36,461 nucleotides of DNA from positions 1-36,461 of the forward strand of contig JAITVH010000094.1 of assembly GCA_031285905.1 (NCBI GenBank), read 5' to 3'. This document shows positions 7,612 to 34,498 of the stretch, one piece after another (position 1 is the stretch's first letter; every line of letters begins with the position of its first letter). The position numbers were made by a program, and so were the translations under genes. The notes under the pieces are model-generated. The model did not search any database and was not told the DNA's origin. It saw nothing but the letters and a program-made list of their open reading frames with translations. This DNA is from Prevotella sp. GTDB lineage: Bacteria > Bacteroidota > Bacteroidia > Bacteroidales > Dysgonomonadaceae.

Positions 7612-7675
7612 GTGCTATACTATGAAAAATTTTGTAAACCACTTAAATCCGACAGTTTATTAATTGTTATTAAAA

Positions 7676-8992: not shown

Positions 8993-9010
8993 TCACTAAA
9001 AAAATAATCA

Positions 9011-12100: not shown

Positions 12101-12118
12101 ATAAAAAAGATCTATATA

Positions 12119-14113: not shown

Positions 14114-14134
14114 CTAACTAAAAAAATTATACCT

Positions 14135-15070
14135 ATGAAATTCAAAAGTATTATAATAATAGTTGTTCTTATTTTGGTGTCAGTATCCTGCAACCAATAT
14201 GAAGTTTTCGAGAAAGAACAATACAAGAATGTATTTGCATTAATCAGTTCAAACGACAATATTTTTCAAAAATATTTCGATCTGAGAAGAACTGAATCTA
14301 TAGGATACATATCATTTTCGATGGGAGGAACTAATCCGACAAGTAAGGATTTAACAATTAATATTATTGAAGATCAGTCCTACATAGATAATTATAACAG
14401 AGCTTACTATGACATGGACGTATTGAAATATGAGAAGACCTTACCCACAAGCAAGTATGATATAGAAGCTCTCCAATGCATAATACCTGCAGGTAAGTCC
14501 GGAGTCCAGATACCCATTCGTATTCGTCCGGAAGGACTATCTCCTGATTCATCTTACTTTATTGCGGTGCGTATCGATACTTATTCAGATTATGAGCTTA
14601 ACCCTGATAAAAGTTATTTACTCTATCGTGTACGAATCAAAAATTATTGGGCTCAGGGAGACGGAAACACTTCTTATGTATTAAGAGGACTACGTAAACA
14701 GGAAGGGCAAACAGAGATTCAGATGCCGGGAGCAAAAATCATGCATCCTTTAACGAAAAACAAGGTTCGGATTATGATCGGCACAGAACCGTATAAATCA
14801 GATATAGCTACTTTCAATAAATCAGCAATTGTTCTGGAAATACATGATGACAACAAAGTGACCATCACTCCATATAGGAATGCAAATGTAACTCAAATAG
14901 ACGGCGATCCTGATTTTCCGAATATTTTCCGAACAGAGGATGATGGATTTAAGACCTATAAGACTTTCTTGTTACGTTACAATTATGTAGTTAATGGCAT
15001 CACCTATGAAATGAAAGAAGAATTACGTCTTCAATACAATGAAAGTGATGAAGAAGTCATAGAAGAATAA
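14135..15070 (+). CDS. DUF4361-like lipoprotein, putative surface glycan-binding protein
   Basis: A 311-residue lipoprotein with lipobox SVSC (Cys19) followed by NQYEVFEKEQ. The N-terminal half has the beta-sandwich pattern of DUF1735-type PUL proteins: SIGYISFSMGGTNPTSKDLT and then CIIPAGKSGVQIPIRIRPEG, where the block 'xxIPAGxxxxxIPIxI' is common. The C-terminal half resembles DUF4361/BT_3044-type proteins, with the conserved YWAQGDGNTSYVLRG and a final YEMKEELRLQY. Family knowledge: such proteins follow SusD in many PULs and bind glycans at the cell surface. It is fourth in a tight operon (21 bp from SusD, 17 bp to the next gene). No catalytic motif is seen. Confidence 0.8.
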   Translation: MKFKSIIIIVVLILVSVSCNQYEVFEKEQYKNVFALISSNDNIFQKYFDLRRTESIGYISFSMGGTNPTSKDLTINIIEDQSYIDNYNRAYYDMDVLKYEKTLPTSKYDIEALQCIIPAGKSGVQIPIRIRPEGLSPDSSYFIAVRIDTYSDYELNPDKSYLLYRVRIKNYWAQGDGNTSYVLRGLRKQEGQTEIQMPGAKIMHPLTKNKVRIMIGTEPYKSDIATFNKSAIVLEIHDDNKVTITPYRNANVTQIDGDPDFPNIFRTEDDGFKTYKTFLLRYNYVVNGITYEMKEELRLQYNESDEEVIEE

Positions 15071-15087
15071 TTTAATAATTTAGAAAG

Positions 15088-16149
15088 ATGAAAAATTTTA
15101 CTGATAAAATAATAATATTGTTTCTTCTCACACTTGTTCTAACAAGTTGTGACGATTATGACAGAACAGAGGTAGTACCTACTATTTTTGTAGATCATCC
15201 ATCGTTAGACCTATTCGTCGGAGATGAGATCCAACTTGGAGTAAATCCAAAGGATGGATCATCATATACTTGGGAAAGTACAACTGAAAATGTAGCCACA
15301 GTCTCAAACGGATTAGTAAAAGCTGTTGGTGAAGGTACTGCCGACATCTATGTGAGAAAGGGTGATATTTATACTATAGTACCTGTTACAGTAGCTGTTA
15401 AAATCCCTTTAACTGGTATTGAATTGAGTACGGATAAGCTGGAGTTATTTCCGAACAATCAAGTACAGGTTCTGGTAACAGATATACCAGAAAACGCAAA
15501 TGATGTCCCCAGAACAGACTTCTTGTGGTGGACTGATAATCAAGATGTTGCAATCCCTACGTCTAATGGTAAAATCACAGGAGTTGGAGAGGGAATTACC
15601 ACCGTTTATTATCGTAAGGGTACATTTATCAAATCTGTTATTGTTGATGTGGCAACTTCACGTCCGTTCAAAGGGCCACATATCCTCTCTAAAGAAAATA
15701 TATTAACCCTTGAAGCGCGTAACTTCGATTTTGGAGGCAAAGGTTATGCATATCATGACGATGCAGGTAATTCCGGCGGATCAAGTTATAGAGCCGATAA
15801 CGGTGATAACAACAGTCCGGACGTTGATATCGAAGGCGGTGGAAATATTGGATATGCCAATGCTGGCGAGTGGTTACTATACACAGTAGAAGTACATGAT
15901 GCAGGAACATATCTGGTACAATTACAAGCCTCTGGTAATGGCGGAGACGGATATTATCATATCGAAGTAGACGGAGAAGACCAAACCGGTCAGTTATCAG
16001 TTCCGGCTAACGGAAGCTGGAGTAATTGGACATGGTATCCTAGTACTCCTGGAGAATTGACACTCACTGAAGGGAAACATAAAATTAAGCTTTATATTGA
16101 TAAATCAGGATTCAATTTTTATAAATTGAAATTTGAATTTAAGAACTGA
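15088..16149 (+). CDS. BIG2 and CBM6-like surface lipoprotein
   Basis: A 353-residue lipoprotein (lipobox LTSC, Cys21) followed by DDYDRTE, an acidic surface-export-like signal. Residues about 30-105 and 108-190 are two bacterial Ig-like (BIG2) repeats, each ending in the typical A/T-V-G-E-G-T block (VKAVGEGTADIYVRKGD and ITGVGEGITTVYYRKGT). The C-terminal domain (about 205-352) is a CBM6/CBM35-like carbohydrate-binding module: LEARNFDFGGKGYAYHD, then NIGYANAGEWLLYTVEV, and a final HKIKLYIDKSGFNFYKLKFE. It has no catalytic domain, so it is a likely glycan-capture protein. It is the last gene of the SusC operon and is followed by a hairpin terminator. Confidence 0.87.
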   Translation: MKNFTDKIIILFLLTLVLTSCDDYDRTEVVPTIFVDHPSLDLFVGDEIQLGVNPKDGSSYTWESTTENVATVSNGLVKAVGEGTADIYVRKGDIYTIVPVTVAVKIPLTGIELSTDKLELFPNNQVQVLVTDIPENANDVPRTDFLWWTDNQDVAIPTSNGKITGVGEGITTVYYRKGTFIKSVIVDVATSRPFKGPHILSKENILTLEARNFDFGGKGYAYHDDAGNSGGSSYRADNGDNNSPDVDIEGGGNIGYANAGEWLLYTVEVHDAGTYLVQLQASGNGGDGYYHIEVDGEDQTGQLSVPANGSWSNWTWYPSTPGELTLTEGKHKIKLYIDKSGFNFYKLKFEFKN

Positions 16150-16181
16150 GGTTTTCATAAATTAGATTCGTAATTTGGGGT

Positions 16182-16215
16182 AAGAGCCGGTATCTTTAAA
16201 TGGATATCGGCTCTT
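16182..16215 (+). terminator. Hairpin ending the SusC/SusD operon
   Basis: The 13-base arm AAGAGCCGGTATC (16182-16194) pairs with 16203-16215 with one G-T pair and an 8-base loop. A T-rich run (CTTATATCTATTATTTTAT) follows. It starts 33 bp after the stop codon and separates the SusC operon from the rhamnosidase gene. Confidence 0.75.
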
Positions 16216-16253
16216 CTTATATCTATTATTTTATCTATATAGATAACGTACTA

Positions 16254-16289
16254 TTGGGAGATATTTATCAACCATAATTTATATATTTG
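16254..16289 (+). promoter_or_regulatory. Putative Bacteroidota promoter for the rhamnosidase gene
   Basis: TATATTTG at 16282-16289 is a perfect match to the Bacteroidota -7 consensus TAnnTTTG, 57 bp before the start codon. A TTG at 16254-16256 lies 25 bp upstream, a few bases longer than the usual 19-21 bp spacing, so the -33 part is weak. The element lies after the upstream terminator, supporting separate transcription of the rhamnosidase. Confidence 0.5.
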
Positions 16290-16346
16290 CATATGCCCTG
16301 CATAATTTTCATGGTTCAATAAAGAATAACCTAAAATATCTATTTT

Positions 16347-19010
16347 ATGCGAAAAATATTCAGTTATCCCATTCTTCTTATATTAGCATTATATATGCTG
16401 GTAAGTTGTGATAATCCTATAACAATAAAAGACTTAAAATGTGAAAATCTTATCAATCCAAATGCGATAGACAATATTCATCCTCATTTTAGCTGGAAAA
16501 TCCAGTATAAAAAAGTCCAGATGCAACTTGTTTCGTATGAAATTCAAGTTGGGACTGATAGTCTCGAATTATTAAAAGATCTCGCTGATTTATGGGATTC
16601 GGGCAAGATAATTTCCGAATCCTCTATCATGATTCCTTACGCAGGAAAAGAATTATCATCCCGTACGTTATGTTATTGGAGGGTTCGTGTATGGAATGAA
16701 AAAGAAGAAGTATCCGATTGGAGTGATATTGCACGTTTCGGAACAGGTATTATTGAAGATGACTCCATACAAGGATGTTATATCGGACTACCAATTGAAG
16801 CTGGTAATATACAAACCCCTCTATTGAGAAAGAAATTTAGCTTAGATAAAATAAGTACATCTTTTTTACATGTTAATTCCTTAGGTTATCATGAGGTGTA
16901 TGTAAATGGCAAAAAGGTAGGGAATGATGTACTCTCCCCTGCTGTTTCGCAACTGAATAAAAGATCGCTTATTGTCACCTATGATATAACATCATATCTC
17001 AATAAAGGAGATAACGATCTCGTTTTATGGCTAGGTAGTGGATGGTACAAGAAAACAACTTTTGGCGCAGCTTATGATGGGCCTTTGGTTAAAGCTCAGT
17101 TAGATATTCTGGAAAGTGGAAACTGGAAAACATTGTTATCTACAGATTCATCTTGGATGGGCACTCAGACCGGATATAGTGATACCGGCTCATGGAGGCC
17201 GCATCAATTTGGTGGAGAAAGAGTGGACGCAAAATTAAATCCAAAGGATTTAACCTATGATGTGCTAGACAAACTATCATGGGTTCCTATTGTCGAAATT
17301 TCTGTACCAGGGCATACAGTCTCACCTCAAATGACACAATCGAATAAAACACAAGAGACAATTACTCCCAAAGAGATAAAACAAATAAATGACAGTACAT
17401 GGTTTGTAGATATGGGTAAGGCTTTAAATGGTTGGTTTGAAATAAAACTACCAAATATATCAACAAATCAACAAGTTTTAATTGAATATACAGATTTTCT
17501 TGAAAACGATGGAAGTTTTATTGATCAGGGACAAAGTGACATCTATATTGCCTCCGGCGATGGTAATGATATATTCTGTAATAAATTCAATCATCATGCA
17601 TTCCAATATGTTAGAATTTCGGGGCTTAAAAAAGAACCGGATAAAAAATATATGAAAGCTTATCTTATTCATACAGATTTTGACGGTAGCTCAACTTTTG
17701 AATGTTCTGATACGGATATAAATGCCATTCATAACCTGATTCAATATACAATGAGGTGTCTTACTTTTAGCGGCTATATGGTCGATTGCCCCCATTTCGA
17801 GCGTTTGGGTTATGGTGGTGATGGAAACTCATCTACCGAATCGCTCCAAATGATGTATAACGTATCCTCTGTCTTTATGAATTGGCTACAAGCATGGGAG
17901 GACAGTATGCGCGAAGGAGGCAGCCTTCCGCATGTTGCTCCAAGTCCTTATTCAGCAGGAGGAGGCCCTTACTGGTGTGGCTTTGTAATAATGGCTCCAT
18001 GGCGGACTTATGTTAATTATAATGATAAAAGACTAATTGAAAGGTACTATCCTCTAATGAAAAAGTGGTTGGAATATGTCGAAGAATATACAGTGGATGG
18101 AATTTTGAAACTCTGGCCAAATACAGAATATCGTAATTGGTATCTGGGGGATTGGCTGGCTCCTACAGGAGTCGATACAGGAGCTGAGTCTTCGATTGAT
18201 CTGGTGAATAACTGTTTTATCAGTGAATGCTTTGCTACCATGGAAAAGATAGCCGATGTATTAAATATACCGGAAGATGCTGAAAAGTTTGCCAAACGTA
18301 GAGACGATCTGAATAAGCTTTTACAGGAAAAGTACTTCGATCCAGATAAGAACATTTATTCCACAGGCTCTCAACTGGATTTGTCATATCCAATGTCAAC
18401 AGGAATAACTCCTCAATCGCTATATGATAAAGTAAAAGAACAATTATTTAAACGGACTAATGAAAATTATAACGATCATATTGCATGCGGATTAGTTGGC
18501 GTCCCTATACTCACAAAATGGGCTATAGAGAATAATGCTGTGGATTTTATGTATTCGATGTTAAAGAAACGCGATTATCCGGGTTATCTACACATGATAG
18601 ACAGAGGGGCTTCTACCACATGGGAATATTGGAGTGCAGAAAGAAGCCGGATTCATAATTGTTATAACGGTATTGGCACTTGGTTTTATCAGGCATTAGG
18701 AGGGATCAGGCTCGATGAAGAAAATCCCGGGTACAGACATATATTCATAGAACCACAAATACCGGATGGAATGACATGGGCAAAGACATCTCTAGAATCT
18801 CCATATGGAACAGTTTCGACAAACTGGAAATTAGAATCCGGAAAGTTTAAGATGGAAGTAGTATTACCCATCGGATGTAAAGCCACTGTCATTTTACCGG
18901 AAAATGCTCAGGATTACAAACTGAATGGGAATAATTTAGATGAAGGATCATCATTTGGAATCAACAACGGAAAACATCTTATTGAAGCTTCTTTAATACC
19001 CGCTAAATAA
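16347..19010 (+). CDS. GH78 alpha-L-rhamnosidase lipoprotein
   Basis: An 887-residue glycoside hydrolase that would release terminal alpha-L-rhamnose. It has a lipobox LVSC (Cys21), so it is membrane-anchored. Domain order matches GH78: an N-terminal Ig-like segment (about 30-130), the beta-sandwich Bac_rhamnosid_N domain (about 150-325, HVNSLGYHEVYVNGKKVG), a second beta domain (about 330-440), the (alpha/alpha)6 catalytic domain (about 445-780) and a C-terminal beta-sandwich. The catalytic-acid region is DCPHFERLGYGGDG (480-493) and the second catalytic motif is ASTTWEYW with Glu760. The Phe in DCPHFERLG replaces a commoner Arg. It has its own likely promoter after the terminator of the SusC operon and is the only glycoside hydrolase in the window. 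Confidence 0.95.
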   Translation: MRKIFSYPILLILALYMLVSCDNPITIKDLKCENLINPNAIDNIHPHFSWKIQYKKVQMQLVSYEIQVGTDSLELLKDLADLWDSGKIISESSIMIPYAGKELSSRTLCYWRVRVWNEKEEVSDWSDIARFGTGIIEDDSIQGCYIGLPIEAGNIQTPLLRKKFSLDKISTSFLHVNSLGYHEVYVNGKKVGNDVLSPAVSQLNKRSLIVTYDITSYLNKGDNDLVLWLGSGWYKKTTFGAAYDGPLVKAQLDILESGNWKTLLSTDSSWMGTQTGYSDTGSWRPHQFGGERVDAKLNPKDLTYDVLDKLSWVPIVEISVPGHTVSPQMTQSNKTQETITPKEIKQINDSTWFVDMGKALNGWFEIKLPNISTNQQVLIEYTDFLENDGSFIDQGQSDIYIASGDGNDIFCNKFNHHAFQYVRISGLKKEPDKKYMKAYLIHTDFDGSSTFECSDTDINAIHNLIQYTMRCLTFSGYMVDCPHFERLGYGGDGNSSTESLQMMYNVSSVFMNWLQAWEDSMREGGSLPHVAPSPYSAGGGPYWCGFVIMAPWRTYVNYNDKRLIERYYPLMKKWLEYVEEYTVDGILKLWPNTEYRNWYLGDWLAPTGVDTGAESSIDLVNNCFISECFATMEKIADVLNIPEDAEKFAKRRDDLNKLLQEKYFDPDKNIYSTGSQLDLSYPMSTGITPQSLYDKVKEQLFKRTNENYNDHIACGLVGVPILTKWAIENNAVDFMYSMLKKRDYPGYLHMIDRGASTTWEYWSAERSRIHNCYNGIGTWFYQALGGIRLDEENPGYRHIFIEPQIPDGMTWAKTSLESPYGTVSTNWKLESGKFKMEVVLPIGCKATVILPENAQDYKLNGNNLDEGSSFGINNGKHLIEASLIPAK

Positions 19011-19067: not shown

Positions 19068-22000
19068 TTAGTCTTCAATAATTACCCTGAAACCGACATT
19101 AAATACGCGCTGCCAAGGATAATAGGCTTTACGTGTATAGGCTGTGGAGAACTTAGGCCGATCTAAATATGAGCCACCACGTACCACTTTATATTCCGAA
19201 TGTTTTTTTGACTTTTCAGAATATGGATATGGCAGGTAATCCGAACATGTCCATTCAGCAATATTTCCATGCATACTATATAATCCGAAAGGATTTGCTT
19301 CATACAATTTTGAATCGACCTGATTCATATTTCCGTCATCCACACTTGCTTCTTTTGGTAAATAATTATAGTAGGGAAACCAGAAATCATTTTTGGACAT
19401 TGGTTGTGGATCGATTCCACTAACCGCCATATTGCTCAACTGTGCATCAGCCATGTTTTCATATTTCGAGAAATCTGTATTGCGGTCACCATACCAAAAA
19501 TCAGAATCGCTACCTGCACGACAAGCCCATTCCCATTGAGCTTCTGTTGGCAGAGTAATATTAAGGCCTGTTTTTTTACTTAATTTTTCACAATATTCTA
19601 ATGCATCCTCATAGCTCACCCTGATAACCGGTTGCTCCGGTCGATTTGCTTCATACCCTGGCCGCGTATGATCTTTCCAGAACTGATCGACATAACGACT
19701 ATCGTGTTCAGGAACAAGTGCTTTATACTGGTCATTGGTAATTTCGATCTCACCCATCCAGAACGATTTGTTAATCTTTACCTTTGATATAGGGGAAACA
19801 TCTGACTCTCTGGTATTACTTCCCATTACAAATTCTCCGGCAGGAATCCGAACGAAGTTGATCTTCACTCCTGAAGCTATTTCTATTTTCTTACGGCTTT
19901 CTTTTTCATCCGACAACATCTTTTCTATCTTATCTTTTCCGAATGGCCACCCTTTCACCTTTATTTCTCTGGTTTTCATAGGTTCCATTTTCTTAGGACT
20001 TTCAGGCTCCGGTTTACCTTTAGTCTTGAGATAACCTGCATAGTCTTCTATCTCTTTCCTCCAGTCAACACCTGACTCGTTAGCGTATTTATCATTTAAC
20101 TCAATTCTACGCTCATATTGATTGAATCCCTTATATGGAAATCCATCATAATTTATGGCATCGAAATATCCCTTATCTGGAGCATTGTAATCTATCCAGT
20201 TATATAGGCTGCGCCATTCTTCTTCTGTCAGTTCCACATTATAATGTCCCTTTTTGAGCATACGAACCAACTCGCTTGTATTCGGATGATATTCATAAGG
20301 TTGGAGTACAGGCATGTCCGCTTCCGGCCCCTGTCGGCGCACATATGGATGTAATGCCAAGTAGGAAGTTCCAAATCCCATCTTATCTTTTTCTCCTCCA
20401 TTCAAATTCATTCCCCCTTTTTCACCATTATGGCACGAAACACAAGCTCTGTCGAGGATAGGTTGTACCTCCAGATCGAATGTAAATGATCGGACTCCTC
20501 CCTCCGGCATTGTTAGTCTCATCGGTGCTTTTTGAGATGCCGCCACCCGTTTTGGAATCGGTATCTGATTTTGGTCTTCATGACACCCCACGCACGATAC
20601 TATTTCGCCCGGCATTCCTGTAAACCAGCTACGCATCCATTGCACGGCAGCACCATCCTTATCTAACGGCTGAATAGAGATAGGCGTATTGGCCGGAACC
20701 TTAAAAATCACAGAGCCATCTTCTTCAATAGGTACAGTACCTAGCAGACGTTTTATATCCCATCCGCTTTGGATGCCTTGTGCATAATGATCAGACCGCG
20801 TATTAAGGTAAGCATATTCATATCCATGGATACGCAATTCCTTAATAGTCCCCTTGGGCACTCCCCGCAATCCTTCACCTTCATATATATCCTGAATAAA
20901 TACCGTAGCTTCTTTTTCATCCAATTTTACCCTGTCGGGGATAGCAGGCGGTATTTCTGTCTTGCGAACAATAATAGGACTGATAAAACCTTCCCCCTCC
21001 TGTTTCATAAGGCAAGTTACATTGTCAAATACATCCACCAGGTACATACCCCATAGATCATCAGGGCTAAGTTTGGCAGTAACCAGAAAATATTTATCAT
21101 CTAATGGATAAGGCTTAATAAACTGAGGCCAAACACCATTTACCAGTTCATCTTTTATTTCCGGTATTATTTCCCTGTTCCTGTGCGGTATTTCCTGGAT
21201 CATTCCCTGTACTCCTTTACGGGCTTTCATAGGATCGAACAGAATAATACGTCCCGAACGGGCTATCCCATGATGTCCCGAGATGATACCTACAAATGCA
21301 GATGAATGCCCGGGTAGAGGTTGCATATCGAAAGTACTGTTGGGGAACATTTCCCCGCTTCCAAATAATGCTTTATTTTCTGTCCCATCTGGATTCATAT
21401 GCATCACCATCCGCGAAAAATAATGGGTAAGATCAGTATATTCCCATCGAGTGTACATCACCCTTCCATTATGCATTATCACAGGATTCCAGTTAGCATC
21501 CTGATCAAATGTCAGACGGCGCATATTATCTTTCGCAGGATCATACAATACCATATTACCTACAGGATCACCCCCATTAACACAAGGAACCCCATGATAA
21601 CCGATATTGGAATTCACAATAATGCGTCCATCCGGGAGATATGTGCCATCATAAAATTCCAATTCAGGCTCTTCAGTTTTCATTAATGGCTTGAAACCGC
21701 TTCCATCTAACTTTACTTCGAATACATTCCAGCGATTATCCGGCATAATGGATGTAAACATTACGCGGTCACCATCCCAATGAAGTTTTAGATCAGCAAT
21801 AGAAGCCGAATTTGCAGGTTTAAAGACTGAGCGGGTTTCAATATCTCCCCGTAGGTTTATTAGTTCGACTATATCTGCTCCATGTCCCTTACGCGATGCT
21901 GATTGCTGATTACTCCAGTTGTTTGCCTGTGTACCAAGTTCCGGAGCCATTGCTGTACGTGCATTAGCTCCCAGTTTAAATCTTGCAGCAATGATCTTAT

Positions 22001-23063
22001 CCCCATCTAGCAAAGAATTTCCCAAAAGAATAGTGCGTTTAATATCCAATGCCTTTTCGGCTGATAGTAAAGCTGTTTCATCAGAACGATAGATACCATC
22101 AAAGCCTTTCCTCACCAATTGTTCCAGTTCGTCCATCATTGGTTGGTACTTAGAAACATTATATCCCTTATTCTTCTGCATATCGATAAATGCGAGCCGT
22201 ATTGCTTCAATGTTCAACCAATCCAGATCGTTTTGGATAGCTATAATACGCGATGCATTTTCAAATAACTCCAGGTAAGAACGTATTTGTTTATCTTCAT
22301 CATTACCCAATTCTGCCTGATTGAAAAGATGGCGAAAATAGCTACTATCTTTAAGTTTAGATATAAGCGATAATGATGCATCTTTTTCATATGAAATACC
22401 AGGAGAAATCAATAAAGTTTCCAGCTTACCTGAATTTCCTACAAGGGCATTTAACTGATCAGGATAAAGTTTCAGCAATTTGTCTGCGTCCTCTTTTGGA
22501 TATGTATTCAGAACCGAGAAATAGACACTTCCGGTTTTGGATTCATTATCTATACCGACTTCCGCCTCGAAACGGGCAAACTGTTTATTTATATCAAAAA
22601 TCATTATCCCATCGGAATGGCAAAACATACCATGTTCATAAGTCTTATCACCTATGGAAATAGGTTTTCCAAAATGATTCACATTTTTTCGGACACTTGC
22701 TTCAGTCGAATGTTTGTAGACAGGTTCAAGTTCATCCAGCCAGACCGATGTACCGTCTGTCTTGATCAAGCGGACATTTGTCCAGACACTCCAATCCCAG
22801 CTTCTCCCATCGGGACCACCAGAGGTTACAAGTACCAGTTTATCCTGTCCTTTTAGATCTGCAACAATTGTTTCCGGCTTCTGTCCTGCCTTGATCCATG
22901 ATGACCGAATTGGCATATTAGCCTTCTTGAGAGTTGTACGTATTTTAGATTTCTCTTTCACATAGGCATCTATCCAATTATCAGTCTGCATTTGCTTTGA
23001 TTGAGCAAATATGCAGAATATAGTAAGAAAGAAGAGTGATATTAAGCTGACAAGTTTTTTCAT
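19068..23063 (-). CDS. NPCBM / hydrazine-synthase-alpha-like / FGE-fold multihaem exported protein
   Basis: A 1331-residue exported protein (signal peptide MKKLVSLISLFFLTIFCIFA). Residues about 45-190 look like an NPCBM carbohydrate-binding module (ISIGDKTYEHGMFCHSDG). A helical linker follows, then a propeller-like region about 340-700 (HWDGDRVMFTSIMPDNRWNV, RVMYTRWEYTDLTHYF) resembling hydrazine synthase alpha (HzsA) homologues. Two c-type haem motifs, CVGCH (824-828) and CVSCH (874-878), come next. About 1065-1331 is an FGE/SUMF1 fold: IPAGEFVMGS, LPTEAQWEWACRAG, HGNIAEW and RGGSYLDRPKF (from 1295). The two catalytic cysteines expected after RGGS are missing (Asp and Ser sit there), so formylglycine formation is unlikely. 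It is the last gene of the IclR operon, 32 bp after the cupin gene. True hydrazine synthesis is not implied. The function is unknown, and the assignment of the middle region is from memory of the family. Confidence 0.85.
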   Translation of the reverse strand: MKKLVSLISLFFLTIFCIFAQSKQMQTDNWIDAYVKEKSKIRTTLKKANMPIRSSWIKAGQKPETIVADLKGQDKLVLVTSGGPDGRSWDWSVWTNVRLIKTDGTSVWLDELEPVYKHSTEASVRKNVNHFGKPISIGDKTYEHGMFCHSDGIMIFDINKQFARFEAEVGIDNESKTGSVYFSVLNTYPKEDADKLLKLYPDQLNALVGNSGKLETLLISPGISYEKDASLSLISKLKDSSYFRHLFNQAELGNDEDKQIRSYLELFENASRIIAIQNDLDWLNIEAIRLAFIDMQKNKGYNVSKYQPMMDELEQLVRKGFDGIYRSDETALLSAEKALDIKRTILLGNSLLDGDKIIAARFKLGANARTAMAPELGTQANNWSNQQSASRKGHGADIVELINLRGDIETRSVFKPANSASIADLKLHWDGDRVMFTSIMPDNRWNVFEVKLDGSGFKPLMKTEEPELEFYDGTYLPDGRIIVNSNIGYHGVPCVNGGDPVGNMVLYDPAKDNMRRLTFDQDANWNPVIMHNGRVMYTRWEYTDLTHYFSRMVMHMNPDGTENKALFGSGEMFPNSTFDMQPLPGHSSAFVGIISGHHGIARSGRIILFDPMKARKGVQGMIQEIPHRNREIIPEIKDELVNGVWPQFIKPYPLDDKYFLVTAKLSPDDLWGMYLVDVFDNVTCLMKQEGEGFISPIIVRKTEIPPAIPDRVKLDEKEATVFIQDIYEGEGLRGVPKGTIKELRIHGYEYAYLNTRSDHYAQGIQSGWDIKRLLGTVPIEEDGSVIFKVPANTPISIQPLDKDGAAVQWMRSWFTGMPGEIVSCVGCHEDQNQIPIPKRVAASQKAPMRLTMPEGGVRSFTFDLEVQPILDRACVSCHNGEKGGMNLNGGEKDKMGFGTSYLALHPYVRRQGPEADMPVLQPYEYHPNTSELVRMLKKGHYNVELTEEEWRSLYNWIDYNAPDKGYFDAINYDGFPYKGFNQYERRIELNDKYANESGVDWRKEIEDYAGYLKTKGKPEPESPKKMEPMKTREIKVKGWPFGKDKIEKMLSDEKESRKKIEIASGVKINFVRIPAGEFVMGSNTRESDVSPISKVKINKSFWMGEIEITNDQYKALVPEHDSRYVDQFWKDHTRPGYEANRPEQPVIRVSYEDALEYCEKLSKKTGLNITLPTEAQWEWACRAGSDSDFWYGDRNTDFSKYENMADAQLSNMAVSGIDPQPMSKNDFWFPYYNYLPKEASVDDGNMNQVDSKLYEANPFGLYSMHGNIAEWTCSDYLPYPYSEKSKKHSEYKVVRGGSYLDRPKFSTAYTRKAYYPWQRVFNVGFRVIIED

Positions 23064-23095
23064 GCTAATTTAAGCTAACTATTTATTCTTATCTT

Positions 23096-23800
23096 TTAAA
23101 GTGAACATCCCGGATTGGTAAAACGCAATCCGGCCCCATCATGGTAAGAAGCCCATTCATCTACAATTGCCCCTTCAGAACCAGCCATCAGGAAATGAAA
23201 ACTTTCCAACTCCTTGAGGCTTATCACCTCTCCTACTTTCTGAATCACATAATTCTTGCTCTTTGTTACCCCATGCTTTTCAGGTATCTTGGGGGCATCA
23301 GATGTTTGTTCTCCTATTTCAGAGAAATTATATGCCCATCCTTTTGTTACCATCCACGCTTCGTGTTTGGCCGGATATTCAGTTTTCACATGAGCATGTT
23401 CCGGAATCATCTGATCAGGCAGAAGATATATTGCATGTGCAAAATAACCATGCTTATCATCATTGATCCAGAAAACACCTCCCATACCAACATTCTCGAA
23501 GTCTCCCAATCCAAAATCAGTAACCCACATATCTTTCTCCAATAAAGGGGTGAACGGATAGTTGTAAAACTCAAACATATCCTTATATGCTTTCATTGCT
23601 ATATCCTGATTGAATTTACCATCTGTATAAAAGTCTGCATTTGTATATTTTTTCTTATAGGACTTTTCTCCTTGATCATTAGACTTAACATTTTCTGCTA
23701 TCCGCTTATCATTAGTAGATTTACCATTATTATCTGAGCATGCTGCAAATAAGGTTATAATCAGAATAATAGGAATAAGGTATTTTACCGGGTTTTTCAT
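23096..23800 (-). CDS. Cupin-fold lipoprotein, possible sugar isomerase-like
   Basis: A 234-residue lipoprotein with lipobox LFAAC (Cys21). After a charged linker, residues about 60-234 form a cupin-like domain with the metal-site motif PEHAHVKTEYPAKHEAW, giving HxHxxxE as in cupin motif 1, and a later ESFHFLMAG supplying a further His as in motif 2. The C-terminal block WASYHDGAGLRFTNPG is distinctive, and I associate it with a Bacteroidota cupin family resembling D-lyxose isomerase-like proteins. A lipid-anchored location is odd for an intracellular sugar isomerase, so a periplasmic or surface role is more likely. It lies between two haem-motif genes (37 bp after one, 32 bp before the other) in the IclR operon. 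Confidence 0.75.
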   Translation of the reverse strand: MKNPVKYLIPIILIITLFAACSDNNGKSTNDKRIAENVKSNDQGEKSYKKKYTNADFYTDGKFNQDIAMKAYKDMFEFYNYPFTPLLEKDMWVTDFGLGDFENVGMGGVFWINDDKHGYFAHAIYLLPDQMIPEHAHVKTEYPAKHEAWMVTKGWAYNFSEIGEQTSDAPKIPEKHGVTKSKNYVIQKVGEVISLKELESFHFLMAGSEGAIVDEWASYHDGAGLRFTNPGCSL

Positions 23801-23837
23801 TGTTATAATATTTAGTGTTTAAAAAAGGCATTTATTA

Positions 23838-25619
23838 TTATAAAGAGTTCACATATTCACTCAGAGCTTCTATCTCTTTATTTGATACTTTCTTATCTTT
23901 TATTCCATGTTTATGAACAGAAAACACTTCTTTCATTGTACCTGCCCGCCCATCGAACAGATAAGGAGCAGTACGCCATACTTCCTTTAAGGTGGGAGTA
24001 TCCCATCCGGCTTCAAACTCTATATCATTGCCAATACGATGCATTTTCAGGTCTGTGTAATATGGCCCGCTGTGACATGCTCCACAATCAAGCTTCTCAA
24101 AAACTTTTTTGCCTTCCTTAGCCTTTTCTGAAAGTTCTCCATTTATTAAATATGGGCTCGGTACAGGACGAAGCGACTTCAGATAGTCATCTACACATGC
24201 CGCACTTTCTTCATCGATATCATAAAACTGAATGTGTTTATAACCTGCCCTGACAGCTATCTCTGCCGAATCGCGTATTCCCGAGATCATGCATTTTGGT
24301 GTCACATGACTAAATAGCAGGCTTTTGCAATTTTTCGGATTGCCAATCCCATCATTCATCAAATCCCAATTCATTCCATCCATACGTCCGTCTCCCGGAT
24401 GACAACCATTACAACTTTGCCAGTTTTGGAAACATTTAGCGGCATCGTTAAAATATTTTTCGCCCAGGTTTTCCCGGGTCTCTACTCTATTAGGGTTTAT
24501 ATTAATATGGTTGACTTCATATGAATCTGTATCTACAAAATTCAATATATCTGAGAAATAAGTAGGAATAATTAATTGATTACTGAATAATGCAATAGCC
24601 CGGGGGCCATTTCCTTCTATTGGAATTCTCGTACGAATACCATATAAAAATGTGAGATCATAATCTAATTTCTCTTTATCAGGATAAGCCAGAAATTTCT
24701 CCAGCATTTTCTTATGATCTATTATACTTATATCGTGCGTTCCGGAATGTGCAATATATATTTGATCATTATCGCATGAGATGCCCCATACACCGGCAGC
24801 TCCCCTCTCTGGTTCGTCCACAAGAACAGCCCCTAGAAATTCCTGTTTGTCCACTTCAATTATGCTGAATGCACTTGTATTCATCCAGCCCTGTTGTAAC
24901 TGAGAGGTAGGAACCGTATAGCGCCCAAGGTTATGTGTTACATATATATATTTTCCATCAGGAGTAATACAAATACCTCGGAGGGCATTACTACCATTGG
25001 CCAATTGTATATCTTTTATTTTCTTGAAAGATTTTATATCGATAACAGATACACAAGAGGCAACATAGTCAAGATCAGCCCGTTGAGCAGGTAAATAATT
25101 AGTAACAAATAAGTATTTCCCGTCTCTACTAAAAATCATTTCTTTAGGCTCCCTCAATACTCCTACTGTTCTTTCTATTTTATTTGTTGCCAGATTGATC
25201 TCTGATACAGTATTTGAAAACTGATTAGCAACATATATATATTGCTTATCAGGACTTAATAAGGGGAAAGTTGTGCCGGATCCTGTCGGAATTGTTGTTT
25301 CTATATTTCCTCTTTCCAGATCAAGTATCTGTAAATGTCCCCATGAACCAAAAGTGGTTATGTATGCCTTGTTCTCATTAACAGTTATACCTGTTGGGGC
25401 TTCCGAGAGTGAATATGATTTTATAAGAGTTTTCCCATCAGGCAAGTATTTATCTATTTGCATCGTTCCTTTTTGAACCATGAAAAGTTCTCCGACTTCA
25501 TTTATGACTATATTTGTTGTGAAAAAAGGAGAATTAGAATATTTGTATTTTGCAGATATTAAGAATATAGCAAAACATATAATAATCTCATTTATAAGAA
25601 CATATTTCACTTTTTTCAT
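23838..25619 (-). CDS. YncE-like beta-propeller fused to di-haem cytochrome c peroxidase-like domain
   Basis: A 593-residue exported or membrane-anchored protein with an N-terminal hydrophobic segment (about 6-23, YVLINEIIICFAIFLISA). Residues about 35-390 are a YncE/YVTN-type beta-propeller with repeated blades such as LSPDKQYIYVANQFSNTVSE and ITPDGKYIYVTHNLGRYT. The C-terminal 200 residues carry two c-type haem motifs, CNGCH (403-407) and CGACH (512-516). They also contain the cytochrome c peroxidase/MauG-like block WDTPTLKEVWRTAPYLFDGR. Family knowledge: this module reduces peroxide or oxidises substrates through two haems. It starts 12 bp after the IclR stop, so it is the first structural gene of the operon. 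The electron partner is unknown; the CxxCH protein two genes on is a candidate. Confidence 0.88.
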   Translation of the reverse strand: MKKVKYVLINEIIICFAIFLISAKYKYSNSPFFTTNIVINEVGELFMVQKGTMQIDKYLPDGKTLIKSYSLSEAPTGITVNENKAYITTFGSWGHLQILDLERGNIETTIPTGSGTTFPLLSPDKQYIYVANQFSNTVSEINLATNKIERTVGVLREPKEMIFSRDGKYLFVTNYLPAQRADLDYVASCVSVIDIKSFKKIKDIQLANGSNALRGICITPDGKYIYVTHNLGRYTVPTSQLQQGWMNTSAFSIIEVDKQEFLGAVLVDEPERGAAGVWGISCDNDQIYIAHSGTHDISIIDHKKMLEKFLAYPDKEKLDYDLTFLYGIRTRIPIEGNGPRAIALFSNQLIIPTYFSDILNFVDTDSYEVNHININPNRVETRENLGEKYFNDAAKCFQNWQSCNGCHPGDGRMDGMNWDLMNDGIGNPKNCKSLLFSHVTPKCMISGIRDSAEIAVRAGYKHIQFYDIDEESAACVDDYLKSLRPVPSPYLINGELSEKAKEGKKVFEKLDCGACHSGPYYTDLKMHRIGNDIEFEAGWDTPTLKEVWRTAPYLFDGRAGTMKEVFSVHKHGIKDKKVSNKEIEALSEYVNSL

Positions 25620-25631
25620 AGTATTATTATT

Positions 25632-26417
25632 TTATTTTCTGGAATAGCCCAACTCGGATGAAATCTGATATGCAATTTGTCTTATACATTTCGCAGAAGA
25701 ATGTATCGTTTCCTTATCCAACCTATCTTTAGGCCCTGAAATCCAAATCGCACCACAAGGATGTCCTGTAAAATTGAAAATGGGCGCACCGACACATATT
25801 ACTCCACTCAATTCTTCCTCATTATCTAATGCATATCCCAAGATACGCACTTTTTCCAGTTCCTCAAGATATTCTTCTTTGCTTTGTATTGTCTTTTCAT
25901 TATACTTCTGAAAAGTCATATATGACAGATAGCGATCACGGGAAATATTAGGAAGATAAGCCATTATAGCTTTTCCGGGAGCAGAGCAATGTAGTTCAAA
26001 TGGTTTACCTGGTGACAGCACAAAACGAAAGGCATGGTTACCCTGCGCCTGTTCTATAAAAATACCTTTTTCTTCTCCTAATACGCCAAAACAGGCAGTT
26101 TCCTGAGTCATATCGCGTAGCTCCCTCAAGCGGGGAAGCACTGTATCCAACAGATTGTGCTCATTCAGAGCCTGATAACCTAAACTTAGCAGCTTATGAG
26201 ATAAACGATAACGTTTAGTATCATTATTATATATAAGGTAATCCAAACGAACTAGTGTATTCAGAATACGGTATGCCGTAGTCTGGGAAATATCTAATAT
26301 ATCTTTGATTTCTTGTAATGATTTTCCTGCAGAATAATTAGATAAATATTCTAAAACACTAATCCCCTTTTCAAGGTTAGGTACTTTATAGTTTTGATTA
26401 TCATCTATTTTTTCCAT
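25632..26417 (-). CDS. IclR family transcriptional regulator
   Basis: A 261-residue regulator from the ATG at 26417. A GTG at 26438 would add seven residues but would overlap an inverted repeat, so the ATG is preferred. The N terminus holds the winged HTH (SVLEYLSNYSAGKSLQEIKD, then ISQTTAYRILNTLVRLDYL) and the C terminus the IclR effector-binding domain, with hallmark blocks LHCSAPGKAIMAYLP and GYALDNEEELSGVICVGAPI. Family knowledge: these bind small aromatic or sugar-derived effectors and usually control adjacent catabolic genes. It is 12 bp upstream of the cytochrome c peroxidase-like gene and clearly heads that operon. Three inverted repeats upstream are candidate operators for autoregulation. 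Confidence 0.92.
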   Translation of the reverse strand: MEKIDDNQNYKVPNLEKGISVLEYLSNYSAGKSLQEIKDILDISQTTAYRILNTLVRLDYLIYNNDTKRYRLSHKLLSLGYQALNEHNLLDTVLPRLRELRDMTQETACFGVLGEEKGIFIEQAQGNHAFRFVLSPGKPFELHCSAPGKAIMAYLPNISRDRYLSYMTFQKYNEKTIQSKEEYLEELEKVRILGYALDNEEELSGVICVGAPIFNFTGHPCGAIWISGPKDRLDKETIHSSAKCIRQIAYQISSELGYSRK

Positions 26418-26432
26418 ATCTGAAACTACAAT

Positions 26433-26446
26433 TTCCACATTTGGAA
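26433..26446. promoter_or_regulatory. Inverted repeat at the IclR start, candidate operator
   Basis: TTCCA-CATT-TGGAA is a perfect 5-bp inverted repeat. It resembles the half-sites TTTCCA/TGGAAA of known IclR operators. It lies 16 bp upstream of the preferred IclR start codon (26417), where binding would block transcription or translation. The function is inferred. Confidence 0.45.
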
Positions 26447-26634: not shown

Positions 26635-27756
26635 TTATCCTCTAAGAACAAGTAAAGGTGTATCTGAATGGAAAAGCATTTTACGAGAGATACTAGGGCT
26701 AAACATACGAGCAAAAATATTCCGCTTACTTGTAGTCAGAGCCAGTATCTCAACACCATCGCTCTTGATATATTCATCCAGACTCTTCAGCATATCATCT
26801 GTATCAATTAGCCTATAATCAAGATTTAACGATGGGTATTGCTTCGAAAAATATGCTTTAATTCCTTCCATCTTTATCTCATCCCACTTATCACTCTTCT
26901 TTACAGATATATGGGTCAAAGAAATCTTCATCTCTCCAAATGGAGCTAATAATTTAGCTAACAGATCAAAGGATATTAAGTCACGTTGACTAAAATTTGT
27001 AAGGAAAGCAATATTCTTCACCTGCCTTATATCTGTGAACGGAGTATTCTCAGGAATTGCAATTAAAGGAACATGTGTCATTTCAATCACTTCAGCTGTC
27101 ACACTTCCTATCAGATCGGCATCTTTCTGATCTTTCCCCCTTGTGCCCATAACGATAAGGGTAGGCTTGTATTCCTTAGTAAAAGTCACAATCTCTTCCT
27201 CAGGCAAGCCTTCTTTCAATACATAAGAATAGTTGATCGCGGGGAATTCTCCTTGTGATACCTTTTCGTCAATCGTATTGCATAACTTCTGAATGTTTTC
27301 TTTTACCCTCTCTATAATATTCCTGAATTCCTTTTCTTCTTTCCCCTGGTATGCAAAAGCCTCTGCCATAGGCAATGCTGTAGGATAATAAGGATTAAAA
27401 TAGACATGAAGTATTTTTACCTTAGCATTCAGGTCACGGGCAATATTAAATGCGATACGGCAGGCCTTGATAGAATAATCCGAAAAATCTACAGGGACTA
27501 ATATACGAGCACGCCCGTCGTCTGTCCTATATGTTTCTTCTTCATCGTAACTAAACAAGTGACGACTCTCTACAACATTCAATGCTTTTGGAAGGTCTGA
27601 TTCCTTTATACGAATACGTACTCCCGCCGATATCCCCGGGTTATTAATATCCACATCGTTTATATGAACTTCTATATTCTCACTTTCCAATACGTTTTTT
27701 AGTATCTGAGCTTTCTCATTTGTGTGAATGGCAAGTGTAACTAGCTTATCTTCCAT
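26635..27756 (-). CDS. DUF2007-like domain fused to tandem universal stress protein domains
   Basis: A 373-residue cytoplasmic protein. Residues 1-70 look like a DUF2007 'putative signal transducing' domain (AQILKNVLESENIEVHIND, SAGVRIRIKESDLPKALNVV). Residues about 82-235 are a first UspA domain (RILVPVDFSDYSIKACRIAF), with the ATP-binding motif G-2x-G-9x-G-S complete at 204-218 (GTRG then GS). Residues about 245-373 are a second UspA domain (NIAFLTNFSQRDLISFDLLA) in which this motif is not recognisable, so it likely does not bind ATP. Family knowledge: tandem Usp proteins bind ATP and modulate stress survival. A small HTH gene lies 82 bp upstream on the same strand, with a hairpin between them. 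Confidence 0.88.
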   Translation of the reverse strand: MEDKLVTLAIHTNEKAQILKNVLESENIEVHINDVDINNPGISAGVRIRIKESDLPKALNVVESRHLFSYDEEETYRTDDGRARILVPVDFSDYSIKACRIAFNIARDLNAKVKILHVYFNPYYPTALPMAEAFAYQGKEEKEFRNIIERVKENIQKLCNTIDEKVSQGEFPAINYSYVLKEGLPEEEIVTFTKEYKPTLIVMGTRGKDQKDADLIGSVTAEVIEMTHVPLIAIPENTPFTDIRQVKNIAFLTNFSQRDLISFDLLAKLLAPFGEMKISLTHISVKKSDKWDEIKMEGIKAYFSKQYPSLNLDYRLIDTDDMLKSLDEYIKSDGVEILALTTSKRNIFARMFSPSISRKMLFHSDTPLLVLRG

Positions 27757-28904: not shown

Positions 28905-29735
28905 TTATATAATTTCTATTTTTTCTCTTTGTATCCAGCCAATGCTGCCATTATCAATTTCAATTTCGAGCCAGTTCCGGTCTTCTTTTGTTATATACAC
29001 TTTGGTACCGGCATGTAGTGTGAAAATCTCTTTACTATTCATATCAGGCGAACTTAAAACAGAAGCAGAGCCTGTCATCACAATTGCAGTATCCCGATAT
29101 TCAACTTTAGCCTTTTGCCTGTATGAAAATACATTAGCAAATATAACAATAACAATTGAAACAATGCCCATATAAAAAGACGCTTTTTTCATTGATACAT
29201 AACGACCAAAGAAGAATGCGACCAAGCATAACATGAAAAGAAGGAAAGCTCCTATTGCAATATTTGCCCAATCATTGGAATTGAACAAGTTTTGAACCGC
29301 GGTAAACCAATTACTAAGAAAGAATGTATCTGCTACTAATATCTTATCTTCGATTTTAGTCATCAGGAATTCAATATTATGGCGAATATCCCTGTCTCCC
29401 GGATCCAACAATAAAGCTCTTTCATAATAAAGGCGGGCTTCTGCCAATTCGTTCATCCTGAAATGAGCATTCCCCAGATTATAATATAAATCGGCAGATT
29501 CAAGCTCCTTAGCTTTCTGCTCTTCCATTTCAGCTTCCAGTAGTGAAATTGCAGACCGGAAATCAGCCGCATTGTAAGCTTCTACAGCCTTTGTATTTAC
29601 GGATTCTTTATTCTCTGCAATATCAACTGTAGCATTGATTGTATCATTACTTATGGAAGGAATAGAATCCTGCGCATAAGAAACCTGATATATCGTGAAT
29701 ATAAATAGGCAAGATAATAATATCTGTTTCATCAT
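28905..29735 (-). CDS. batE: BatE-like TPR and SH3 membrane protein
   Basis: A 276-residue protein with a signal-like N terminus (MMKQILLSCLFIFTIYQVSY). TPR helices span about 48-125, with the canonical SADLYYNLGNAHFRMNELAE and ARLYYERALLLDPGD. Two membrane segments follow (about 157-179 and 186-204), then a C-terminal SH3b domain (about 215-276) with SVLSSPDMNSKEIFTLHAGT and a final GSIGWIQREKIEI. This architecture is that of BatE of the Bacteroides aerotolerance operon. It follows batD by 12 bp on the same strand. Family knowledge: the Bat proteins are proposed to form a periplasmic-facing complex supporting oxidative-stress tolerance. The exact biochemical role is not settled. Confidence 0.9.
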   Translation of the reverse strand: MMKQILLSCLFIFTIYQVSYAQDSIPSISNDTINATVDIAENKESVNTKAVEAYNAADFRSAISLLEAEMEEQKAKELESADLYYNLGNAHFRMNELAEARLYYERALLLDPGDRDIRHNIEFLMTKIEDKILVADTFFLSNWFTAVQNLFNSNDWANIAIGAFLLFMLCLVAFFFGRYVSMKKASFYMGIVSIVIVIFANVFSYRQKAKVEYRDTAIVMTGSASVLSSPDMNSKEIFTLHAGTKVYITKEDRNWLEIEIDNGSIGWIQREKIEII

Positions 29736-29747
29736 CCCTGGTTTATA

Positions 29748-31586
29748 TTATTTATTTACTTTTTTAATTGTACTCTCCATCTTTCCTATAGCATCTACCG
29801 TATTATCATATAACTTATCCATGTCACCTGATGCAGAAGGTGAATAACGGGCAAATTCGCCGGTATCGAGTATATCGATAAATTGTCCGATCAGGTCATC
29901 CCCAACCCCATATCCACGTAGTTCTGCTTCTATATTCTCACGATTCAGTTCAGCTACAGGGATCAACAGTTTATCACTCAGATATCCCCAAACAGCTCTT
30001 AAAACTTCTTCGTAGAAGTTATCCTTATTTTGAGCCTGCATATATTTATTAGCCAGTTTGAGACGCTTAGTTGCCACTTTATTGGCCTTCTTGGTTCTCA
30101 TTCTTGCTATATCGGCATTTGCCTTAATCTGTTTTCTATAGACTATAGTAAATATTATTAAAAGCAATAATGGAATAATATACCATAATATATATGTCAA
30201 TGAACTAAAGAAAAAGTTCTGAGGATTTTTAAATTTAAAGTCTCCGGTTTTCAAATAACGTATATCCTGAGCAACCTTCACTTCACTCTGGCTTGAATAG
30301 CTGGTTGATACATTCGAACCTGCATTTGGATCCCTTGCCACATCCAGTTCATAGACAGGAGAAGCAAGAGTCTTGTAAGAATTACTTTTCGTGTCGAAAT
30401 AAGAAAACTCAATAGGAGGAATAGTATACTTACCCGGATGGCGCGGAATAAACATATATTCTATTGACTTAGTTCCCGATAATCCATTTTCAGTAATTTT
30501 GAAATCATTTTTCACCTGAGGATCGTATGTCTCCATATCCTTAGGGAATTTTACTTCCGGATTTTTTATCAGTTTCATATTACCGGCACCCTTGATATTG
30601 AGTTTAATAGTAACAGCCTCATTGGCTGTCACACTTTGCGAAGAGATTGACGGTTCAAATGTAAAGTTACCCACCCCACCGGAGAAACCCGATGGTTTGC
30701 CTTCGATAGGTAATGGAGAGACATCTACTACTACAGGTGTAGTCTTCAACGTCTTCTTTGCTTCAGTCATTACTTCACGAGTACCAAAAAAATCACGTAC
30801 CTTACGGCCTGTACTTACTTCAAAAACAATTTCCATTGTTCCGGAAGGTATAGTTATCTTACCCGAACGTTGTGGAAACATTAATGATTTCTTTACATCT
30901 ATTGTATAGTAATTCCTGCCATTATAGTGTTCCATGTTAAATTGACGGTTAGCCGGAAGATCAACCTCTTCACTCATAAACCCTTCGAATTCGGGGAATT
31001 GAATTTTACCCACATCCCTTATATTCAACACTGTATAAAAACGAAAAGTAACAATAACAGCTTCCTGTTCTTTTACTTTCGTTTTGGAGAATATAGCTCT
31101 GACAAAAGCATCATCGGCACTGACATTTCCTCCGGTAGAGGTAGAGGAAGTTGCTTGTGGTTGCTGTCCGGGTTGCTGTTCATCTGCATTTTTATCAGGA
31201 GGTAAAACTTTTATTTTCGCTGTGTTGGAAGTATAATTCTTTCCGTCTACTCTTATACTTGCTGCCGGTAATGTAAAATCACCTTCTTCTTTTACCAACA
31301 GAACATATGTATAAGTCACATTCCTATCGGAAGTAGACTTGCCATTTACTGTAGACGAACTGAACATTTGTGTAACGGTGGGCCCATAAAGCACATCAAA
31401 TCCTTTTATCTCATCCGGAATTTCGGGCGTATCGCTTGCCTGGCCTCCCCTCAGTATATATTTTAACTGAATCTGAGCTCCCTTTACGCTAGTATTAGGT
31501 ACACTGATAACAAATGTGATGTCATCAGCAAATGCATTAGAAATACTTATGAATAACAATAGTAATAAAAAATAATACTTTTTCAT
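29748..31586 (-). CDS. batD: BatD oxygen-tolerance protein
   Basis: A 612-residue protein with a signal peptide (MKKYYFLLLLLFISISNAFA). A long extracytoplasmic region made of Ig-like beta domains carries the BatD motifs EIKGFDVLYGPTV, IFSKTKVKEQEAVIVTFRFY and GKITIPSGTMEI. A low-complexity linker (about 135-160, QQPGQQPQATSSTSTGG) interrupts the first two domains. One membrane segment lies at about 462-482 (SLTYILWYIIPLLLLIIFTI), with a basic cytoplasmic tail of about 127 residues. It lies between a truncated paralogue upstream and batE downstream. Family knowledge: BatD acts with the VWA proteins BatA and BatB. The length is normal for the family. Confidence 0.93.
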   Translation of the reverse strand: MKKYYFLLLLLFISISNAFADDITFVISVPNTSVKGAQIQLKYILRGGQASDTPEIPDEIKGFDVLYGPTVTQMFSSSTVNGKSTSDRNVTYTYVLLVKEEGDFTLPAASIRVDGKNYTSNTAKIKVLPPDKNADEQQPGQQPQATSSTSTGGNVSADDAFVRAIFSKTKVKEQEAVIVTFRFYTVLNIRDVGKIQFPEFEGFMSEEVDLPANRQFNMEHYNGRNYYTIDVKKSLMFPQRSGKITIPSGTMEIVFEVSTGRKVRDFFGTREVMTEAKKTLKTTPVVVDVSPLPIEGKPSGFSGGVGNFTFEPSISSQSVTANEAVTIKLNIKGAGNMKLIKNPEVKFPKDMETYDPQVKNDFKITENGLSGTKSIEYMFIPRHPGKYTIPPIEFSYFDTKSNSYKTLASPVYELDVARDPNAGSNVSTSYSSQSEVKVAQDIRYLKTGDFKFKNPQNFFFSSLTYILWYIIPLLLLIIFTIVYRKQIKANADIARMRTKKANKVATKRLKLANKYMQAQNKDNFYEEVLRAVWGYLSDKLLIPVAELNRENIEAELRGYGVGDDLIGQFIDILDTGEFARYSPSASGDMDKLYDNTVDAIGKMESTIKKVNK

Positions 31587-31646
31587 TAGCCAGTTTATTC
31601 TGTTTATATCGTTAGTTTATACAATTCAAGTACAAAAATAATAACT

Positions 31647-33331: not shown

Positions 33332-33382
33332 TCTTTTTCAGATCATAGACTCACCGGTAAACTTTGCCAACCGGCTCATAAA

Positions 33383-34411: not shown

Positions 34412-34498
34412 AGTTAATTATATCTAGCCTCATCATCGTTTTCATTATTAAAGTAGAAAAGGCATATATTTTCAATTTTGTAATACTTAACTCAACTT

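Follow-up and report, generated by a model that had tools for sequence, protein, structure and literature searches.

Relatives of hydrazine synthase subunits in a four-gene run of a Prevotella sp. contig

What might relatives of hydrazine synthase (HZS), an enzyme described in excerpts of PMC12607021 as unique to anammox bacteria, be doing in a member of the Bacteroidales? The question is raised by a run of four genes on contig JAITVH010000094.1 (Prevotella sp., assembly GCA_031285905.1). By the window we mean the whole 36,461-nt stretch analysed; the run lies at 19068-26438 on its minus strand, as do all features of the run located below. Its first gene, P0004 (25632-26438), has a GTG start and encodes an IclR-family regulator (Pfam IclR_C 4.9e-39, HTH_IclR 1.1e-9). 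There follow P0003 (23838-25619; 593 aa), a fused homologue of HZS beta-gamma that joins a beta-propeller to a diheme cytochrome and is predicted to be exported; P0002 (23096-23800), a cupin lipoprotein; and P0001 (19068-23063; 1331 aa), an HZS-alpha homologue with an N-terminal NPCBM module and a C-terminal module of formylglycine-generating enzyme (FGE) fold. An earlier annotation made from the letters of the DNA, here called the sequence-only reading, had described four same-strand genes separated by 12, 37 and 32 bp, and we re-found four minus-strand open reading frames (ORFs) with these gaps; the end that it gave, 26417, is an in-frame ATG of P0004.

The haem proteins and the cupin

The fold of P0001 matches 5c2v_A, the alpha chain of Kuenenia stuttgartiensis HZS (PDB 5C2V), over all three alpha domains, its core at residues 351-971 (20151-22013) comprising a propeller, a haem alpha-I domain and a haem alpha-II domain. 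Its matches to the HZS_alpha middle domain (3e-37), NPCBM (3.4e-23; residues 105-184, 22512-22751) and FGE-sulfatase (2.6e-43, 149 bits against a cut-off of 23.3; residues 1069-1327, 19083-19859) all lie far above the Pfam cut-offs. The sequence-only reading had placed an NPCBM module and an FGE fold on one product and had proposed the HZS_alpha profile search as a check, and on these points it was borne out. HZS_alpha (PF18582) has matches in 0/14 control genomes. Against the NCBIfam model hydrazine_alpha, P0001 scores 44.4 bits, below the curated cut-off of 800.

P0003 matches the remaining Kuenenia subunits in order along its chain, beta and then gamma (5c2v_B 6.4e-25, 5c2v_C 8.6e-13; by profile comparison, 2.6e-24 and 8.1e-22). 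Over its HZS-beta-like propeller part, about residues 94-364 (24528-25340), the surface-layer propeller 1l0q outscores 5c2v_B (5e-30). The top NCBIfam match is NF052342 hydrazine_BC (6.6e-25), at 87.4 bits far under its curated cut-off of 1250. A single-sequence structure model of P0003 was poor (predicted local distance difference test, pLDDT, 43.9), and the beta-gamma assignment is by sequence only.

Each of the two proteins carries two CxxCH motifs, at the residues where the sequence-only reading had put them. In P0001, CVGCH (824-828; 20580-20594) and CVSCH (874-878; 20430-20444) align with the haem alpha-I and haem alpha-II motifs of 5c2v_A; in P0003, CNGCH (403-407; 24399-24413) and CGACH (512-516; 24072-24086) are the attachment sites of haems gamma-I and gamma-II. 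Our residue counts take in all ORFs from the surveyed loci above the length limits, namely 66 alpha rows (at least 1000 aa) and 50 beta-gamma rows (at least 540 aa), which include the window itself and one locus present twice; the alignments proper were hand-picked for spread (A1, 27 of the 50 beta-gamma ORFs; A2, 31 alpha rows; A3, 30 of those, L064 being omitted). Both motifs are present in 66/66 alpha rows, and in the beta-gamma ORFs, all of which have two (50/50), C, C and H of each motif are conserved in 50/50; thus the pairing of CxxCH motifs in both proteins is not due to chance. An active formylglycine-generating enzyme was considered and rejected, since the FGE/SUMF1-fold module of P0001 lacks the FGE cysteine pair, which we take to be the active-site pair: Cys stands in 0/66 and 1/66 rows at the two aligned places. 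The module also matches the secretion proteins PorK/GldK.

P0002, already named a cupin lipoprotein in the sequence-only reading, shows at its N-terminus a lipobox-like FAAC, recognised by eye, and has a domain resembling D-lyxose/D-mannose isomerases (23111-23539; 7nzo 1.1e-9, 2y0o 9.9e-7). Residues H135, H137, K145, E147 and H202 are each conserved in 53/53 rows, and the HxH, E and H among them are presumably the cupin metal ligands, as in D-lyxose isomerase. The likeness to these isomerases thus extends to the ligands, whereas the lipoprotein-like N-terminus sets P0002 apart and, with a match of only about 1e-9, isomerase activity is putative.

To place the pair among genomes we surveyed the order through 393 genomes, an even draw from a larger group, with a match threshold of E 1e-60. 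Twenty of them have beta-gamma and 19 have alpha, all 19 being common to both (Fisher p 1.9e-31, not corrected for descent); in the twentieth beta-gamma genome, an alpha of 28% identity adjoins a partial beta-gamma match (G439). The distribution is patchy, because the hosts are spread over 13 families, and within the window's own family a P0001 relative at E 1e-60 occurs in 4/101 genomes. We conclude that P0001 is homologous to HZS alpha and P0003 to HZS beta-gamma, that the two carry four CxxCH sites together, and that they co-occur across genomes. The sequence-only reading had made its proposal depend on the gene set being conserved elsewhere, and the set is indeed found together across genomes.

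Twenty-four named loci have alpha and no beta-gamma in the stretch; of 12 genomes tested, 11 have beta-gamma elsewhere and one, that of L045, does not. In some assemblies an alpha without adjacent beta-gamma coexists with an operon (L048 with L057, L053 with L035), and the alphas may be interchangeable, sharing one beta-gamma. In L045, L047, L048 and L053 the HZS-like alpha lies in clusters with SusC/SusD, GH2, GH88-like or alginate-lyase genes, in stretches that contain no beta-gamma. L064 and L087 begin within alpha and continue with a GH127-like gene (slightly under the Pfam cut-off), and at L112:4457-6808 a 783-aa protein with eight CxxCH motifs and TPR repeats adjoins an HZS-like alpha.

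A longer operon in relatives and its proposed function

From 84 matches to P0001 peptide patterns we kept 74 loci, many of them cut by contig ends, whose titles mostly name Parabacteroides, Bacteroides, Tannerellaceae or Rikenellaceae. Searched by tblastn with the proteins of P. gordonii (L042), these gave beta-gamma in 50, the cupin in 52, CcsBA in 54, a protein that we call F9 in 51, DhaK in 50, DhaL in 51, LsrF in 52, a chorismatase-like protein in 47, IclR in 43 and a further protein, F10, in 30; in 40/74, beta-gamma, cupin, alpha, CcsBA, F9, DhaK, DhaL and LsrF are all present on the same strand. The extra genes of most relatives were absent from the sequence-only reading, as were the propeller of P0003 and its beta-then-gamma match. 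Names were given by domain (CcsBA, Cytochrom_C_asm plus ResB; DhaK, Dak1; DhaL, Dak2). The LsrF of the operon scores 470.6 bits against an equivalog cut-off of 297 and, in an alignment of 285 residues with E. coli LsrF (2.6e-108), keeps the Lys of KTYY, which we take to have a role in the enzyme. The chorismatase-like protein reaches 89.9 bits with the FkbO/Hyg5 model, under the cut-off of 325. F9 matched no family in the domain library scans, VOC-like being a reading by eye; it keeps H8, H62 and E103 in 41/41 rows.

Among the 393 genomes LsrF was found in ten, nine at 69-86% identity and all with the alpha/beta-gamma pair, the tenth (43%, two stops) without it. Three pair-bearing genomes with LsrF that were tested for DhaK have it, and three without LsrF lack it. 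Because the presence of DhaK tracks that of LsrF in these six genomes, DhaKL-LsrF looks to be a detachable module. Neither DhaK nor LsrF had a match in the window genome, though absence is not proven, the assembly being 88% complete. The same genome holds a second HZS-like pair on contig 110 (L013:3783-14490), an alpha without NPCBM or FGE together with beta-gamma, whose neighbours are an FGGY kinase, a zinc dehydrogenase, DeoC, two DUF6905 proteins, an SGL/NHL protein and an F10-like propeller; another genome (G315, L105) repeats the same nine genes.

We consider it an even call that the operon is a carbohydrate-conversion operon of which the window's four genes are the periplasmic core. This interpretation is made mainly because a kinase and a DeoC-superfamily aldolase adjoin the pair in both locus types, and it retains the outline of the sequence-only reading, an IclR-led redox system of c-type haem proteins with a carbohydrate theme, which the domains, the cupin match and the neighbour genes support. 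For the aromatic decorations and the sensing that it also put forward, the analysis yielded no evidence. P0001 and P0003, whose export segments were judged by eye only, would be exported and form a tetraheme complex, and the NPCBM and FGE-fold modules would hold or place carbohydrate. The cupin lipoprotein, with its metal ligands kept, would isomerise a sugar in the periplasm, and the haem complex would then oxidise the sugar or ketose, or reduce it, electrons passing through its haems. Where the operon is complete, the product would be imported; DhaKL would then phosphorylate it, the small VOC-like protein F9 might rearrange it, and the LsrF-type aldolase/thiolase would cleave it, with CcsBA attaching the haems. 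In the window genome the product may be used otherwise, the operon may be decaying, or the assembly may be missing the stretch that carries DhaK and LsrF.

A number of observations count against this scheme. The counts over 74 loci are conditional on alpha, since P0001 peptide patterns found the loci, and the cytoplasmic half is optional because 10/19 alpha genomes have no LsrF match. The divergent pairs L106, L107, L108 and L111 show no kinase or DeoC in the stretch read. Transport genes were counted only as SSS in 7/74, SusC in 9/74 and SusD in 3/74, none shown to be conserved, and the scans of the operon families brought up no recognisable electron partner. Furthermore, the genes of the operon do not all have to belong to a single pathway, because a chorismatase-like relative and another CcsBA lie in an imelysin/DHOR cluster of the window genome.

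Active-site residues and alternative functions

That the pair is a true hydrazine synthase, or another enzyme forming N-N or N-O bonds, would agree with the whole-fold match of alpha to 5c2v_A and with the order of matches along P0003, yet we hold it to be extremely improbable and have rejected the name. In pairwise alignment the gamma-His144 place of HZS is Ile445 of P0003, with Ile in 50/50 rows, while gamma-Cys165 (the third haem bond) and gamma-Asp168 fall inside a gap. The place of alpha-Tyr591, a ligand of haem alpha-I, was located by counting, the alignment with 5c2v_A ending at CxxCH; no Tyr occurs at P0001 829-833, and His+4 is Asn in 66/66 rows. Both NCBIfam scores, as given above, are under their cut-offs. 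The invariant His940 of P0001 (66/66) sits one residue off the place aligned with alpha-II distal His772. PMC12758564, in the excerpts available, equates gamma-His144 with the inter-haem Trp of MauG and cytochrome c peroxidase (CCP), and describes HZS key residues as lost also in homologue clades I-III, which keep Trp at this place, like CCP/MauG, where the protein family of the window has Ile. On its predicted key residues, then, this protein family fits neither hydrazine synthase nor CCP/MauG chemistry. The sequence-only reading had assigned the haem modules to the MauG/CCP type; with CCP_MauG (PF03150) at 22.6 bits, under its cut-off of 25.6, and the 5c2v chains matched, they prove closer to HZS, and a generic MauG/CCP label was rejected on this score together with the Ile. 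For the same reasons we think it unlikely that the operon encodes a protective peroxidase or a reductase of nitric oxide (NO) or other nitrogen oxides, in which the diheme gamma part would destroy peroxide or NO and the other genes would be accessory. Gamma is nonetheless CCP/MauG-related, having two CxxCH motifs and a related diheme part in common with MauG and bacterial diheme CCP, to structures of which P0003 has weak matches, and the operon's hosts are mostly known anaerobes, which we count in favour of this alternative. Unlike those enzymes, the diheme part of P0003 is fused to a propeller and occurs with alpha, and a protective role leaves the constant alpha partner, DhaKL, LsrF and the isomerase-like cupin unexplained.

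LsrK, LsrG and LsrF act in the pathway of autoinducer-2 (AI-2), and a more specific form of carbohydrate conversion would have the operon handle a 1-deoxy dicarbonyl, AI-2 (4,5-dihydroxy-2,3-pentanedione, DPD) or a relative, which the haem complex makes or remodels. DhaKL would then replace LsrK, the small VOC-like protein would replace LsrG, and LsrF would cleave the product to dihydroxyacetone phosphate and acetyl-CoA. The equivalog-level LsrF in complete operons, and F9 with its invariant residues, speak for this form, but we find it distinctly unlikely: LsrF homologues may act on other substrates, the scan of eight operon proteins recognised no LsrK, LsrG or LsrB family (neither these nor LuxS were looked for across the genomes), and the VOC assignment of F9 is the one made by eye. 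The operon differs from the Lsr pathway in having DhaKL as its kinase, and the window genome gave no match to LsrF. The complex might instead be a device for maturation or sensing: it could act on a second exported protein to modify it, in the manner of MauG, or detect a glycan by way of NPCBM/FGE, with IclR as the readout. The PorK/GldK matches of the FGE fold, the position of the IclR gene at the head of the run, and the alpha copies that cluster with SusC/SusD, GH2, alginate-lyase or GH29 genes are in keeping with such a device. We rate it very unlikely, given that DhaK and LsrF rank with the most similar neighbours from locus to locus and that the scans of the operon proteins turned up neither a quinone-cofactor substrate protein nor a sensor partner, no dedicated search having been made.

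Neighbouring genes, published relatives and meaning

Downstream of the run, window positions 7664-19010 hold a polysaccharide utilisation locus (PUL) encoding an NHL/TIG protein, SusC, SusD, a BT_3987-like protein, a CBM6/Big2 protein and a GH78 rhamnosidase. The sequence-only reading had linked the run to this convergent PUL; the convergent rhamnosidase gene is real, and a conserved tie was rejected, as GH78 occurs in 2/97 loci, one of them the window. By tblastn over these loci, which count two twice (L009/L014, L010/L067), GH95 was found in 4, GH29 in 2 and GH2 in 9, and with no background rate we claim no 6-deoxy-sugar (fucosidase/rhamnosidase) theme. Names for the GH95, GH43 and GH16 queries and for one of the GH29 queries were assigned by eye; for the GH95, GH29, GH78 and GH2 counts, only the L012 GH29, the L047 GH2 and the window GH78 are Pfam-named. 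On the other side of the run are a universal stress protein gene (26635-27756) and a BatA/BatD/TPR/VWA aerotolerance-type cluster (28905-35488).

Elsewhere in the window genome, a CcsBA of 65% identity lies on contig 94, clustered with a NapC-FGE gene. In that row (L091:8155-14916), CcsBA, a xylose-isomerase-like TIM barrel, a Gfo/Idh/MocA oxidoreductase and a NapC/NirT protein follow one another; the last has four CxxCH motifs, is fused to an FGE domain and is matched in 60/101 family genomes, and the row is a possible quinol-linked periplasmic sugar redox module. Contig 173 (L123:3098-11437) holds imelysin, a DHOR diheme protein, a Rid-domain chorismatase-like relative and CcsBA in one cluster, and a two-gene pair of this cluster also adjoins a divergent alpha in L119.

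With anammox HZS the window pair shares the three-domain alpha fold, a propeller plus diheme beta-gamma and four c-type haem sites, and a fused beta-gamma is likewise described for Ca. Scalindua japonica in excerpts of PMC12758564. It differs in the NPCBM and FGE modules added to alpha, in aligned catalytic residues that are not kept, in the gene order beta-gamma, cupin, alpha, and in having relatives with kinase/aldolase neighbours. Co-located alpha and fused beta-gamma homologues, as in the window, have been published from Planctomycetota, Desulfobacterota and others (clades I-IV; PMC12758564), and hzs-like genes from Phycisphaerae, for which a wider enzyme family with other substrates was suggested (PMC10732223); in the excerpts of both papers these relatives are reported without a known job. 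The neighbours named in those of PMC12758564, FG-GAP/CRTAC1 and ABC substrate-binding genes, are unlike the window operon, and Bacteroidota figure there only in the beta-gamma tree and as members of co-cultures; some proteins of the present family may be listed in its supplementary tables, for example in clade IV or the beta-gamma tree. An NPCBM/FGE alpha or a cupin-CcsBA-DhaKL-LsrF operon was not found described in the open-licence literature, supplementary files lying outside the search. The sequence-only reading knew of no described system with this set; for the exact gene set our search agrees, whereas HZS-like alpha plus beta-gamma pairs are already in print.

Returning to carbohydrate conversion, we offer tentatively, and with considerable doubt, a wider view in which the HZS architecture would be a general periplasmic tetraheme machine for small polyhydroxy-carbonyls. 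The Bacteroidales branch would feed a DhaKL-LsrF cleavage of a sugar-derived or AI-2-like dicarbonyl, interchangeable glycan-docking alphas would share one beta-gamma, and anammox HZS would be a derived, nitrogen-using branch.

An HZS-like architecture of gut and other anaerobic bacteria, with altered active-site residues and beside sugar-handling genes, thus seems to have a second job. In cultured Bacteroides and Parabacteroides (e.g. P. gordonii DSM 23371) a compact operon combines the alpha and beta-gamma pair with genes for a kinase and an aldolase, which opens the function of the HZS fold beyond hydrazine to gene-deletion and substrate-feeding tests, and the operon suggests that gut anaerobes have a dedicated system of c-type cytochromes.

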